Below are positions 5,376 to 51,418 of a stretch of DNA of 64,000 nt, one piece after another (position 1 is the first letter of the stretch; each line of letters opens with the position of its first letter). This DNA is from Methanomassiliicoccus sp. (GTDB lineage Archaea; Thermoplasmatota; Thermoplasmata; Methanomassiliicoccales; Methanomassiliicoccaceae): assembly GCA_012719175.1 (NCBI GenBank), contig JAAYAX010000005.1:1-64000 (forward strand), in the 5' to 3' direction. Under the pieces are notes generated by a model. That model was not told the DNA's origin, did not search any database, and saw only the letters and a list, made by a program, of their open reading frames with translations. A program made the position numbers and the translations under genes.

Positions 5376-6335
5376 CTAGTCCAGCTCCTTGGCGAACCTT
5401 CGCAGGAACCTCTCATCAGGATAGGCCTCTCGGCCGTATGAGGATACGCTTAAGGCCGAGGCCGAGGCCCCGATGCGCCCGCATACCTCCAATGTCGCCC
5501 CGTCCAGGTAGCCGGCCAGAAAACCTGCGGCATATACATCGCCCGCTCCCGTGGTGTCCACAACGACGGCCTTTCTTGCCGGGACCTTTATCGACGAGTT
5601 GTAAGTGGTTATCAACGACCCCTCGCGTCCCAGCGTGCAGACCACGACCTTAGCGCCCATGTCAAGGAGGGTCCTGCTGCCTTCCTGTGGGCCCGAGCCA
5701 GTGAGCATCCTCATCTCCCTATCATTGAGGAACACTATTCGGCTCCTCCCCACAATATCCCCTATCTGCCTCAATCCTCTTCGGGCATATTTCTCTCCGG
5801 GTGCGAAGGAGATGTAGACGTTATCGTCCAACAGATCCAGCAGCTGCTTCTGGAGAAGGAGCGCGGAATCGCTCGAGAATGAGCTGAGGTGCACGAACTT
5901 GGAGGCGTTGAGGTAGCTGATATCGTCGGCCATGAAGGAGAAGAAATCGTTGGAGTTGGGCATGGCCAGGAGGGACCGTTCACCATCTTTCAAAAGGGAG
6001 ATGCACACACCCGCCCTCTTGTACATCTTCACATGGTCGACATCGACACCTTCCATGGAGCGAAGGAGGAACTTGGAACTGTCGTCCTTACCTGTCACTC
6101 CCAGGAATCCGGTGGAATAGCCCATGCGGGAGAGGGCGAACACTGTGTTGGCCGCCGATCCTCCCCCGCTGCGGGCGATGGGCTCCTGCGTCGCTAGCTC
6201 CTGAGAGACCTTCACGAACAGATCCTCATCCCCCACTATCTCCTCACCCGGCTCGAAGGTATGACCAGCCAGGGTGAGAGACGGAACCTTGTAGAAGAGG
6301 TCCACGTTCAGCGCTCCGACCCCGATAACATCCAT
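5376..6335 (-). CDS. PfkB-family carbohydrate kinase
   Basis: A 319-residue ribokinase-fold kinase. The glycine-rich substrate motif GGGSAANTVFALSRMG is at residues 57-72 and the signature DTTGAGDVYAAGF with catalytic Asp266 at 260-272. The substrate is not determined by sequence; archaeal members phosphorylate sugars or nucleosides. A TATA-like ATTATATCC is centred about 26 nt before the ATG and there is no ribosome-binding site, which suggests a leaderless transcript and an independent promoter. Confidence 0.85.
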   Translation of the reverse strand: MDVIGVGALNVDLFYKVPSLTLAGHTFEPGEEIVGDEDLFVKVSQELATQEPIARSGGGSAANTVFALSRMGYSTGFLGVTGKDDSSKFLLRSMEGVDVDHVKMYKRAGVCISLLKDGERSLLAMPNSNDFFSFMADDISYLNASKFVHLSSFSSDSALLLQKQLLDLLDDNVYISFAPGEKYARRGLRQIGDIVGRSRIVFLNDREMRMLTGSGPQEGSRTLLDMGAKVVVCTLGREGSLITTYNSSIKVPARKAVVVDTTGAGDVYAAGFLAGYLDGATLEVCGRIGASASALSVSSYGREAYPDERFLRRFAKELD

Positions 6336-47107: not shown

Positions 47108-47476
47108 ATGAACAAGATACTGAGCGGCGTGCTGATATTTGTGGCCATATTCCTCATACTGTTGGGCGGCATATTCATCATCGCCTGGGGCACCATCAAT
47201 CTGATCACCGGGGCTATCATGCTGGTGATGGCGGGGGCGCTCCTCTTCTTCGTGTATCGGAGCGACAAGATAGAGGCGGCCCAGCCCAAGCTCATCAACC
47301 AGACATTCAACGTTCAGATGAGCGGTTCAGGTTCACTGGAGCAGAAACAGATGACCTGCCGCTCGTGCGGTGCACCGCTCTCAGACAAGGACCTCAGCAT
47401 CGTCAAAGGAGGCATTGTGGTGAAGTGTCCTTACTGCGGCAGCGTATACGCCATGGAGGAGGCCCCCAAATGGTAG
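47108..47476 (+). CDS. Small membrane protein with C-terminal zinc ribbon
   Basis: A 122-residue protein: two N-terminal membrane helices (LSGVLIFVAIFLILLGGIFI and ITGAIMLVMAGALLFFV), a linker, and a cytoplasmic zinc ribbon (MTCRSCGAPL and VKCPYCGSVYAM). AGGAG lies 6 nt before the ATG. Its last codons overlap the start of the DUF2207-like gene (ATGGTAG), so the two are cotranslated. It could help place or scaffold the neighbouring membrane protein or its modifying enzyme; that is inference. Confidence 0.75.
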   Translation: MNKILSGVLIFVAIFLILLGGIFIIAWGTINLITGAIMLVMAGALLFFVYRSDKIEAAQPKLINQTFNVQMSGSGSLEQKQMTCRSCGAPLSDKDLSIVKGGIVVKCPYCGSVYAMEEAPKW

Positions 47477-49137
47477 GTCATCGGCCGTACCCTCTCCCGC
47501 GAGCGGTCTTGGCCGTCATCTTCACCCTCGCCCTGGCAGCATCCGTCGTTTCGTTCGCCGATCCTGTGGGCCAGGCGTCGGCAGCGGACTACTCCTTCTC
47601 CTTGGCGGAGGAGAGAGTGAACGTCACGTTGCTGCAGGACGGCAGCGTGGACATCGATTACCTCTTTCATTTCACCGATGTCGGTTATCTGGACGGAGTG
47701 GACATCGGCATGCCCAATTCACTGTACGACCTGTCCACGGCGACCGCCAAGGTGATCGTCGATGGAACGGAGCAGGGGACCCGCACGCCTTACACCTCCC
47801 CGTGGATAGATATTGGAGTGGCAGTGGACCTCTTGCCGAGCACCATCAGCGCCATCCAGGGCGGAGGCTCGTTCACGCTATTATTCCATATCAACAATCC
47901 CCACATGATCTACTCCAACCCTGATCAAGAAGGACAGGCAGGGGTCAAGTTCACTCCCACGTGGTTCAACCCTGAATACCAGAACGGGAACACCGGCCTC
48001 CTGAACGCCTCGGTCATCCTGCCCGAGAGTCTGACCGAGGCATCGGAGGTGACATGGTTGACCAACCAGCCATTCGACGGCCTGTTCATGGATAATGAGA
48101 TAGGGAGGATGGTGGCCACCTGGGAGGCCACTGAGGTAGATCCCAGCTCCCAGTCCGTGGGGGCCTACGATGTGGGGGCGGGATTCCCCACACGTCATGT
48201 GGCTGTGTACTTCGACCCCTCCACCAATCCTGACCTCAATGGGGGCGGTGGAGACCTCTTTGAGGACCTGGGCATTCTCTTCGCCCTTCTGTTCCCCATC
48301 ATTTTCGTGGCCATGTTCATATCCATCTTCGTCGCAGCCCTCCGTGGGGCTTCCAAGCGCCGCATGGACTATTTCGAGCCCAAACTGAGCGTAGTGGGGG
48401 CGGGACCCCGCCGGGACCTCACCGCCGTGGAGGCCGCGGTCGTTCTTGAGCGTCCCCTGGAGAACGTCGCCACCATGATCCTGTTTGGGCTGCTCAGGAA
48501 GAAGATGGTCAGGGTGGTCGACGAGAGCTACCCCATGCAGCTGCAAAAGCTCGCCGAAGCGGGAGAGCATACGTACGAAACGGATTATTTGAAGGCCATC
48601 GGAAAGGATGGAAAGGTGGCCCGCAACGCCCTAAGGGACTGCCTCGTAGGACTCATTAAAATGACCACGAAGAAGCTGGAAGGATTCGATATCAATGTCA
48701 CCAAGACATACTACAGCTCCATCGTTGACCAGGCGTGGAAGCAGGTGACCGATGCCCAGACGCCGGAGGAGTTCGCCTCGGTGCTGCAGCAGAGCAATGA
48801 GTGGATGATGCTCGACAAGAACTATGAAGGGAGGATGAGGAGGACGGTCTTCCCACTCCCAGTAAATATCCCTACGACCGGACGTACGGTCAACGGGTAC
48901 CCACTCGCAGGTCTTTCCTCGGGAAAGAACCTGGCCCAGGACTATGTGGACAAGGTTAGAGACGCGGGCAAGAACGTCGTCAATGACATGAGGGGGCTAA
49001 CTGGGCAGGTGGTTTCACGCACCAACCCCATCCCCATCACTTCAGCGTCCAGCAGCGGGTACCGTGGCGGGGGCGGGGGCCACAGTTGTGCCTGCGCCTG
49101 TGCCTGCGCCTGCGCCTGTGCCGGAGGTGGCCGCTGA
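47470..49137 (+). CDS. Membrane DUF2207-like protein with a Cys-Ala repeat tail
   Basis: A 555-residue protein. A signal/anchor helix (about 11-30) precedes a 225-residue extracytoplasmic beta domain, a membrane helix at about 264-290 (LFALLFPIIFVAMFISIFVA) and a cytoplasmic region of 260 residues. It resembles DUF2207/TIGR04222-type membrane proteins, which often end in low-complexity Gly/Cys tails. Here the end is a Gly-rich linker then HSCACACACACACAGGGR: six Cys-Ala repeats, predicted cytoplasmic. The next gene, a radical SAM/SPASM enzyme, overlaps the stop, so the tail is the likely modification substrate. Start chosen at ATG 47470; the longer frame overlaps the previous gene. Confidence 0.85.
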   Translation: MVGHRPYPLPRAVLAVIFTLALAASVVSFADPVGQASAADYSFSLAEERVNVTLLQDGSVDIDYLFHFTDVGYLDGVDIGMPNSLYDLSTATAKVIVDGTEQGTRTPYTSPWIDIGVAVDLLPSTISAIQGGGSFTLLFHINNPHMIYSNPDQEGQAGVKFTPTWFNPEYQNGNTGLLNASVILPESLTEASEVTWLTNQPFDGLFMDNEIGRMVATWEATEVDPSSQSVGAYDVGAGFPTRHVAVYFDPSTNPDLNGGGGDLFEDLGILFALLFPIIFVAMFISIFVAALRGASKRRMDYFEPKLSVVGAGPRRDLTAVEAAVVLERPLENVATMILFGLLRKKMVRVVDESYPMQLQKLAEAGEHTYETDYLKAIGKDGKVARNALRDCLVGLIKMTTKKLEGFDINVTKTYYSSIVDQAWKQVTDAQTPEEFASVLQQSNEWMMLDKNYEGRMRRTVFPLPVNIPTTGRTVNGYPLAGLSSGKNLAQDYVDKVRDAGKNVVNDMRGLTGQVVSRTNPIPITSASSSGYRGGGGGHSCACACACACACAGGGR

Positions 49138-50483
49138 TGAGACTCTCCCAACGCTGGTCTGAGCTCATGGGTCGGGGGCTCCATCAGGGCGTCTTCCGTT
49201 ATGATGGCATGGGAACACTTGCACATCACCGGTTCCACCTGAGGGTGGACTCCAAGCAGAGGGGGATCCTGATTATCGACGCCTCGCAGCTGGTGGAGCT
49301 GAACGGTACGGCGCTGGATTACGTGAGGTGCCTCCTGGAGGGCCGGACCGAGGAGGACATGTTCCGCTACATGAGCCACCGCTACCAGGGTCTGGACCGT
49401 TCCACCGCCTCGGAGCACTACTCCCGCATCTCCGATCAACTGGTGCGCTTCATGAACGGTGAGACCGATATTCTGGAGATAATCGGCACGGAACGACCTA
49501 CCATAGGCGCGGACGACTTCCCCGCCCCCTACCGCATGGACCTGGCCCTCACCTACCACTGCCAGAACGTCTGCGCCCACTGCTACAACGAGCCTCGGGA
49601 TCTGAAAGAGCTTGATGAGGACAGGTGGATGAAGGTCATCGCCCGGACATGGCAGCTCGGCATTCCCCACGTGGTGTTCACTGGGGGAGAGCCAACGCTC
49701 ATACCTTACTTGGACCGGCTGATAGCCCGCTCTGAGAGCTATGGACAGGTGACCGGCCTCGTCACGAACGGCCGTAAGCTCAGTACCCCGGGATACCTCA
49801 AGGACCTGGTGGGCAAGGGCCTGGACCATGTCCAGATCACGGTCATATCCCACCGTGAGGATGTGCACGACCGTCTATCGGGAGCCCTGGGGGCCTGGAA
49901 GGAGACGATCGAGGGCCTGAGAGCAGCGTTGAAGGAGGACCTGTATGTCAGCACGAACACCACCATCATGGCTTCGAACAAGGATGATGTCCTGGACACA
50001 ATGAGGTTCCTGATCTCCCTGGGCGTGAAGAACATCGCTTTCAACAGCATCATCCGCTCCGGCAAGGGAAAGGAGACCGAGGGCGTGGCCTATCCAGTCC
50101 TACAGGACATTCTCACAAAGCTCAACCTGCTGGCCGAGGAGGCCGGGGTGCGTATGGTGTGGTACACCCCCACGCCGTACTGTGAGCTTAACCCCATCAA
50201 CCTCGGCTTGGGCATAAAGCAGTGCACGGCCTGCTCCATCAATATGGCGGTAGAGCCGGATGGTACGGTCCTTCCATGCCAGAGCTACTACTGTCCCCTG
50301 GGCAACATACTGCAGGACCCTTGGGAGTACATCTGGAACCATGATCTGTGCAAGGAGATCAGGGGCAGGAGGTACGTGGAGGAGAAGTGCACGGACTGCG
50401 CCCTACTGGACACCTGCGGCGGAGGTTGCCCTCTCGCCCGGAAGATGGGTAGCCTGGCATGCTGGGACCACGGGCCCTCCTGA
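49137..50483 (+). CDS. Radical SAM/SPASM peptide-modifying enzyme with N-terminal PqqD-like region
   Basis: A 448-residue enzyme. Residues 20-110 resemble a PqqD-like peptide-binding domain (GILIIDASQLVELNGTALDYV). The radical SAM cluster motif YHCQNVCAHCYN is at C142-C146-C149, and the C-terminal SPASM region has QCTACSINMA, LPCQSYYCP and CTDCALLDTCGGGCP for auxiliary clusters. Enzymes of this plan install thioether or other cross-links in peptides. ATG 49137 is chosen: it overlaps the upstream TGA (TGATG) and has GGAGGTG 7 nt before it, inside the Gly codons of the tail. Confidence 0.9.
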   Translation: MRLSQRWSELMGRGLHQGVFRYDGMGTLAHHRFHLRVDSKQRGILIIDASQLVELNGTALDYVRCLLEGRTEEDMFRYMSHRYQGLDRSTASEHYSRISDQLVRFMNGETDILEIIGTERPTIGADDFPAPYRMDLALTYHCQNVCAHCYNEPRDLKELDEDRWMKVIARTWQLGIPHVVFTGGEPTLIPYLDRLIARSESYGQVTGLVTNGRKLSTPGYLKDLVGKGLDHVQITVISHREDVHDRLSGALGAWKETIEGLRAALKEDLYVSTNTTIMASNKDDVLDTMRFLISLGVKNIAFNSIIRSGKGKETEGVAYPVLQDILTKLNLLAEEAGVRMVWYTPTPYCELNPINLGLGIKQCTACSINMAVEPDGTVLPCQSYYCPLGNILQDPWEYIWNHDLCKEIRGRRYVEEKCTDCALLDTCGGGCPLARKMGSLACWDHGPS

Positions 50484-50486
50484 CCG

Positions 50487-51272
50487 TCAGCGCTCCTTCT
50501 TGGATAGGGCATAGAACACCGGATTATGCTGAACGAGCGTCCCCTCCGTCACCGCTTGGTCCCACGCCCGCCTCACCACGGCCATCTTGTCCTGCCCCAA
50601 GATGCCTGATGTCATGTGGACGATCTCCTCCCACTCTCGGTCCGCCTCCTCCTTCGTCCATCCCGCCATCCGCATGCCCGAGAACGTTCCCGTGGCGGGA
50701 ACCAGGCCGCACTGGGAGATGATGCCCGGTATCTTCCGCCCCATTTCCGGATCCGCACCTTGCCCCCTCAGCCCCCTGACCATAGCATCGTCGATCACCG
50801 AGACCTCAGGCGGGTAGCTTATGCGACCGCAGTAATCAGGCTCTGCAAAGCACAGGACCCATGTCCTTGCCACCCTGGCCATCTCCCTCACTGCCGCCGC
50901 CGCATCCTCGACCCAGAGAAGAAGGTACGAGCAGTACACGATATCGAACGAGGCATCATCGAAAGGCAGATCCTCGGCCCTTGCCTGCACCGCCTTCTGG
51001 TCCCTGGACCTGCAGGCGTATACGGCCTCAGCATCGATGTCCACGCCTTGCACATCCAGATAAGGGGACAGCAATTCCATCACCAGACCGGGACCGCAAC
51101 CAACGTCCAGCGCTGTAGGCCTCCCTGTGCCCATCGACATGCCTGGGAGCACAATGGTCCTCAGCAACCATATCCATGAATCTCCAAGCCATCTGCATTG
51201 GCGGGCCAGCTGCTCTTCGGGGATACGTCCTGGAGGCATCGGGAGAGTGAGGGGCTGTGCATGAATAAGCAT
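50487..51272 (-). CDS. Class I SAM-dependent methyltransferase
   Basis: About 261 residues with a Rossmann methyltransferase core: ALDVGCGPGLVMELLSPY (motif I), GVDIDAEAVYACRSR (acidic residue), AEDLPFDDASFDIVYCSYLLLWV (motifs II-III). Ubiquinone/menaquinone-type (UbiE-like) methyltransferases have this layout, but the substrate is unknown. It converges with the radical SAM gene, 3 nt apart, so it is not in that operon. Start uncertain (51272 or 51239). Confidence 0.75.
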   Translation of the reverse strand: MLIHAQPLTLPMPPGRIPEEQLARQCRWLGDSWIWLLRTIVLPGMSMGTGRPTALDVGCGPGLVMELLSPYLDVQGVDIDAEAVYACRSRDQKAVQARAEDLPFDDASFDIVYCSYLLLWVEDAAAAVREMARVARTWVLCFAEPDYCGRISYPPEVSVIDDAMVRGLRGQGADPEMGRKIPGIISQCGLVPATGTFSGMRMAGWTKEEADREWEEIVHMTSGILGQDKMAVVRRAWDQAVTEGTLVQHNPVFYALSKKER

Positions 51273-51331
51273 TTTGCAGATATCAATGCGGGAACGGTCG
51301 TTATTCCTCGGCCATTGATTCCCTGGTCGCA

Positions 51332-51346
51332 GGGTATAAAAAGTGG
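51332..51346 (+). promoter_or_regulatory. TATA box of the ATP-grasp gene
   Basis: GGGTATAAAAAGTGG, one of the best TATA matches in the window. Expected start of transcription about 51360, giving a leader of 55-60 nt before ATG 51419. Confidence 0.5.
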
Positions 51347-51418
51347 AGAAGGTGGTATCCACGCGAGGAGTGCCAGACCATCACCGAGGACCACCTGCCG
51401 ACAGCCTATGTCATCAAC

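Follow-up and report, generated by a model that had tools for sequence, protein, structure and literature searches.

A conserved Cys-Ala tail on a membrane protein is inherited with a radical SAM/SPASM enzyme and may be its anchored substrate

The window analysed here, a 64,000-nucleotide stretch of a Methanomassiliicoccus sp. contig, encodes a membrane protein whose C-terminus, GGGGGHSCACACACACACAGGGR, consists of six Cys-Ala pairs closed by three Gly residues and an Arg ((CA)6GGGR), followed directly by a radical S-adenosylmethionine (SAM) enzyme. As judged from gene content in related genomes, these two genes belong to a cassette that also encodes a zinc-ribbon membrane protein and a class I SAM-dependent methyltransferase, and the four are inherited together. 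We consider it probable that this is a maturation cassette that works like a radical SAM pathway for ribosomally synthesised and post-translationally modified peptides (RiPPs), with the difference that the substrate would be a membrane protein's C-terminal tail, kept permanently and cross-linked at its Cys residues while anchored. With somewhat less assurance, we favour a wider proposal in which the enzyme, joined in Chloroflexota by a dead paralogue, and the methyltransferase act on an invariant (Cys-Ala)n-GGGR tail to give the membrane protein a fixed, modified element. Such a membrane-tethered, RiPP-like cofactor or metal site would have a housekeeping rather than an antimicrobial role, and would be an undescribed system shared by archaea and bacteria.

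A Cys-Ala tail inherited with a radical SAM enzyme

The tailed protein (555 amino acids; 47470-49137, forward strand) ends in a conserved core, CACACACACACAGGGR (49087-49134, forward strand). The tail is the single occurrence of a CACACA stretch in the whole genome, and all 24 of the order-level homologues whose tails could be read terminate in (CA)6GGGR. To these were added tails from Chloroflexota, where an enzyme profile provided 52; neither this profile nor the whole-protein homology used in the order employed the tail as bait. Every one of the pooled distinct tail DNAs (76/76) ends in CACACAGGGR-stop, and all synonymous codons for Cys, Ala, Gly and Arg occur across the set. The single genomic occurrence, the uniformity of the order tails and the identity of all 76 termini despite free codon change together place the tail under strict selection at the protein level, rather than among chance repeats.

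About 85,000 species genomes were scanned with a pattern that left one residue, the choice between Arg and Ser, and the stop free; this returned at least 117 tails, and the free positions were Ala, Arg and stop in all matches listed. Among these, the most frequent form was (CA)4G(CA)3GGGR (55 tails), followed by (CA)3G(CA)3GGGR (15), (CA)5G(CA)3GGGR (13), (CA)3G(CA)4GGGR (11), (CA)6GGGR (10) and a few others. The shortest tail found was (CA)3GGGR, and the minimal core common to all of them is CACACAGGGR-stop. Nearly every member has a Gly-rich linker ahead of the tail. Two members (L109 and L131) have the tails CACACACDSCACACAGGGR and CACACACVSCACACAGGGR, in which the usual AG step in the middle is swapped for DS or VS steps. 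This replacement suggests that the mid-tail Gly position is a turn and not a modified residue. A tailed end of the (CA)3GGGR form was also seen on an IMG/VR contig classed as viral (5856-5888, reverse strand), which may be host DNA.

Enzyme and tail are distributed as a pair. The window's order was sampled with 147 genomes, in counts that ignore shared ancestry: the tailed protein was found in 25 genomes and the enzyme in 24, all among those 25. The one genome with a tailed protein but no enzyme has its tailed gene at a contig end, and the remaining genomes lack both proteins. The methyltransferase adjoins the enzyme in 24/24 cases, with one more copy at a contig edge, and the next best methyltransferases anywhere score no higher than 98 bits. 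The zinc-ribbon protein is present in 24 of the 25 genomes with a tailed protein, in line with its earlier designation as a possible third component, and elsewhere just two weak, ribbon-only matches were found. One genome that is 95% complete, from a genus with five carriers, lacks all four genes, and the cassette therefore behaves as a unit. The largest family of the order set contains no carrier.

Beyond the order, in counts that likewise ignore shared ancestry, 16/16 tails adjoin the enzyme in a sample of the phylum Thermoplasmatota. Chloroflexota carry the enzyme in 70 of 121 genomes (E below 1e-150); a tail lies within 5 kb of it in 52 of the 60 regions read, and somewhere in the genome in 56 of 59 genomes with the enzyme. 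In the converse test, the enzyme was present in 10/10 tail-bearing genomes. The pairing put forward in the original prediction, which a model had made from the window's sequence, held in both directions and is well supported by these genome comparisons. The at least 117 tails listed are spread over Thermoplasmatota, Asgard archaea, Chloroflexota and some ten further bacterial phyla, and cultured carriers include Ornatilinea apprima, Leptolinea sp. HRD-7, Levilinea saccharolytica and Bellilinea caldifistulae.

Architecture of the cassette proteins

The layout of the window locus agrees with what had been read from it at the outset, as coordinates and sequence confirm: the zinc-ribbon gene (47108-47476, forward strand) runs into the start of the tailed gene at 47470, whose TGA stop in turn overlaps the ATG of the radical SAM gene at 49137 (TGATG). 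Missing from that first reading were the methyltransferase gene next to them (50487-51362, reverse strand; start codon uncertain, conserved part 50496-51230), which is convergent with the radical SAM gene, as well as the degenerate radical SAM paralogue of Chloroflexota and the spread of the system over two domains of life. On the cassette proteins, all Pfam and NCBIfam models stay below their cut-offs, with the exception of the generic domains radical SAM and SPASM.

The radical SAM enzyme (448 amino acids; 49137-50483, forward strand) has its CxxxCxxC cluster motif at residues 142-149 (49560-49583, forward strand), with Cys at 142, 146 and 149. Its SPASM region (50223-50462, forward strand) includes C363, C381, C418, C421, C427 and C431. 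These six and the three radical SAM Cys are invariant in 71/71 members of the family alignment, C349 is present in 70 and C442 in 25. Pfam scores of 70.4 bits for Radical_SAM (cut-off 29.5) and 38.5 for SPASM (cut-off 21.5) identify both domains in the window enzyme, and the two were found in 28/28 family members. The N-terminal PqqD-like region, a RiPP recognition element (RRE; residues 18-106, 49188-49454, forward strand), matches Pfam PqqD below threshold over residues 47-103 in the window protein (15.9 versus 23.4 bits) and was detected in 24/28 family members (best E 7e-7). Its fold is borne out by AlphaFold2 (AF2) and Foldseek, which match it to SkfB, SuiB and CteB, and the three-part architecture originally predicted for the enzyme can be retained. 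For the complete model (predicted local distance difference test score, pLDDT, 87.6) the nearest solved structures are SkfB, SuiB, CteB and TigE, all of which are RiPP maturases. The family has a mean column identity of 49% over archaea and bacteria, and in its tree Thermoplasmatota, Asgard archaea and one Aminicenantes row form one supported group, apart from a large Chloroflexota group.

The AF2 model of the tailed protein (mean pLDDT 77.7) comprises a signal helix, an extracytoplasmic beta domain (residues 43-240), a transmembrane (TM) helix (261-299) and a cytosolic helical domain (319-518), followed by a disordered linker and the tail. Foldseek with the whole model, which is informative for the extracytoplasmic domain only, showed the beta domain to be similar to the M1 aminopeptidase N-domain and to ribophorin I. 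Nearly all members with a single TM helix carry basic residues after it, and because of this positive-inside pattern the tail is predicted to be cytosolic, on the same side as the enzyme. The family is matched by no model in Pfam or NCBIfam and has no sequence relatives in the PDB. The first interpretation of the locus survives in part: the pairing, the cytosolic tail and the zinc-ribbon partner stand, whereas the label 'DUF2207-like' had to be abandoned. PF09972 has no match to the window protein or anywhere in its genome, and a profile comparison (hhalign) with a true DUF2207 protein from the order gave a probability of 2.6%. The two families share a general plan of extracytoplasmic beta domain, TM segment, cytosolic part and Gly-rich end, but no sequence relationship was detected and the beta domain has the different matches given above.

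A second scaffold type, seen at eleven loci, has additional hydrophobic segments and, ahead of the linker, the motif NLSG(A/V)DKVTGD. The tails at these loci are of the form (CA)2-3G(CA)4GGGR and the radical SAM gene lies upstream or elsewhere; the tailed end on the viral contig is also of this 'NLSG' type. In one genome the tailed-protein homologue contains a single in-frame TGA, which reflects either a sequencing error or a broken gene.

Recurring partners emerged when the genes near the collection tails were clustered. Of the 117 loci listed (most of 8 kb), 105 encode the enzyme, its paralogue or the methyltransferase, and 69 encode the zinc-ribbon protein. The latter has a hydrophobic N-terminal half and a C-terminal zinc ribbon; it is encoded upstream of the tailed gene and has four invariant Cys and an invariant P..W end in the family alignment (EEAPKW in the window, EEPKW in the family). 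The methyltransferase is a class I protein of about 250 amino acids, and the window copy is homologous to those of the Asgard and Chloroflexota cassettes (E about 1e-31 to 1e-36 for Chloroflexota). Most Chloroflexota loci also encode a second radical SAM paralogue of about 390 amino acids that has lost CxxxCxxC and, in most members, the SPASM Cys as well. Since the motif is lost, this protein is predicted to be incapable of radical SAM chemistry, and we infer a substrate-binding role for it. At ten Chloroflexota loci, and at three more, the radical SAM gene adjoins the gene of a weak tailed-protein paralogue (90-142 bits), which lacks the Cys tail and in most cases terminates in ...TTFYG or similar, while the true tailed protein and the degenerate enzyme are encoded a few kb or further away.

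Relation to known maturation systems

By its sequence, the enzyme carries the testable defining features of RRE-SPASM maturases, namely CxxxCxxC, the SPASM Cys, an N-terminal RRE and a co-encoded Cys-rich candidate substrate. All 25 NCBIfam models of named radical SAM families that were compared score far below cut-off. These include the sactipeptide maturases AlbA (60.1 bits, cut-off 850), SkfB (61.9, cut-off 300) and StsB (64.1, cut-off 625), as well as the PqqE model TIGR02109 (109 bits, cut-off 381). Anti-phage defence was also considered; the radical SAM core gave weak, generic viperin-like matches and the methyltransferase gave a weak one, with nothing specific among them.

The closest mechanistic comparison is with the maturation of sactipeptides and ranthipeptides (SkfB, AlbA, CteB/SCIFF, thuricin CD, ruminococcin C), in which a Cys-rich core likewise has an enzyme with RRE, radical SAM and SPASM regions encoded next to it, Ala is known to serve as acceptor (PMC8172795) and the best structural matches of the cassette enzyme are found. 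Those pathways act on a small precursor with leader and core that becomes a secreted peptide, whereas the candidate substrate here is the C-terminus of a membrane protein of 450-680 amino acids (555 in the window), with an invariant core and an added methyltransferase, zinc-ribbon protein and degenerate radical SAM paralogue. Judged by its predicted precursor, the cassette falls outside the sactipeptide systems, nor does it belong to any of the NCBIfam families compared.

To our knowledge, the quinohemoprotein amine dehydrogenase system has no membrane anchor, repeat tail, methyltransferase or zinc ribbon. It does provide a precedent for modification within a full protein, as its radical SAM enzyme QhpD installs thioethers there (PMC8326336). 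The precursors of radical SAM cluster 59 contain a Cys dipeptide repeat of up to six copies beside a radical SAM gene, but the repeat is Asp-Cys rather than Cys-Ala and the locus consists of a recombinase, the radical SAM enzyme and the peptide, with no membrane scaffold (PMC9062424). In gene content, the nearest catalogued parallel is the Trs-type cassette (the radical SAM selenoprotein Trs set), which combines a methyltransferase (MTase_DVU1556), a DVU_1557 redox protein and the radical SAM enzyme TrsS, three components of the kinds seen here. Among NCBIfam models, MTase_DVU1556 scores best on the window methyltransferase (55.9 bits, cut-off 155) and the zinc-ribbon protein matches DVU_1557 weakly (14.4 bits, cut-off 60), but these and the TrsS model (cut-off 490 bits) all remain below cut-off. 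We know of no tailed protein in the Trs set, which is possibly a distant functional parallel and serves as a lead only.

Possible fates of the tail

We infer the chemistry, the methyl target and the function of the cassette from these features. Membrane insertion of the tailed protein would leave its tail in the cytosol. The RRE would dock on this protein, and the radical SAM domain would act repeatedly along the CA tract, using its auxiliary clusters in the manner of SkfB, SuiB and CteB. A sactionine-like thioether between a Cys sulfur and an Ala carbon, with 2 Da lost per bond, would be the likeliest product. This bond is favoured because sactionine bonds to Ala are documented, in Trn-beta (Cys9-Ala25) and in ruminococcin C1 (RumC1; Cys5-Ala12) (PMC8172795). 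The Gly in (CA)nG(CA)3 forms would make a turn, and GGGR with the free C-terminus would be the recognition end. In a later step the methyltransferase would methylate the tail or its end, and in Chloroflexota the cysteine-less paralogue would be the substrate-binding partner. Most likely, the product would remain attached to the membrane protein and form a rigid, redox-active or metal-binding element there; our guess of a fixed redox or metal element is preferred because the core shows no diversification and the cassette loci have neither a protease nor an exporter in common.

Several observations weigh against cross-linking of an anchored tail. AlbA does not accept Ala at its own acceptor sites (PMC8172795), and the tail is disordered in the AF2 model. 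The last SPASM Cys (C442) is absent in 46/71 members, so the auxiliary cluster set may vary between them. No tail was found in three Chloroflexota draft genomes with the enzyme, in which the enzyme lies on short or broken contigs. Finally, co-inheritance is a measure of linkage and not of catalysis.

The tail might also undergo a different reaction, such as C-C bond formation, oxidation of Cys to a thioaldehyde-type group, decarboxylation or epimerisation, which would yield a built-in redox cofactor. SuiB makes C-C bonds, and the presence of a methyltransferase suggests a further step. RRE-SPASM enzymes catalyse many reactions, for example the formation of cyclopropylglycine on TVGG repeats by TvgB (PMC9062424). 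Cys is the invariant reactive residue here, however, thioethers are the commonest outcome for Cys-rich cores and there is no pointer to a specific alternative, which leaves such chemistry as a possible but unlikely outcome.

An unmodified polythiolate metal site, similar to the CxCxC motifs of metallothioneins and carried by a membrane metal sensor or store, would fit the alternating Cys, which would place all thiols on one face, and the zinc-ribbon membrane partner that is nearly always encoded; the radical SAM enzyme and the methyltransferase would then have some other substrate. This is improbable on two counts, as simple metal-binding tails tolerate substitutions whereas in this tail Ala, Gly and the final Arg vary no more than Cys does, and as the enzyme is of the RRE-type peptide maturase class while the cassette loci encode no other conserved substrate for it. 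A shade less probable again is a released RiPP of 16-20 amino acids, freed by protease cleavage in the Gly-rich linker, the membrane protein then being both large leader and anchor: the near-universal linker and the similarity of the enzyme to maturases of released peptides would suit it, but it lacks a recurrent protease or exporter, its tail is predicted to be cytosolic, its scaffold, a conserved membrane protein of several domains, does not resemble a leader peptide, and its core is without the between-species diversification typical of antimicrobial peptides.

Cross-linking of a tail that stays on its membrane protein is the reading we retain. No description of the cassette was found in the open-licence literature, subscription papers and preprints lying outside the search; the system would work like a radical SAM RiPP pathway, and a membrane-protein tail as its substrate may be new. 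As cultured carriers exist and the CACACAGGGR core is short enough for synthesis, the substrate, product and role are directly testable. Radical SAM RiPP enzymes are usually viewed as makers of small, fast-diversifying secreted peptides. A candidate core that is unchanged over Thermoplasmatota, Asgard archaea and many bacterial phyla, and that would be kept on a membrane protein, points instead to a function, named by none of the annotation libraries used, that is basic to the cells of anaerobes.

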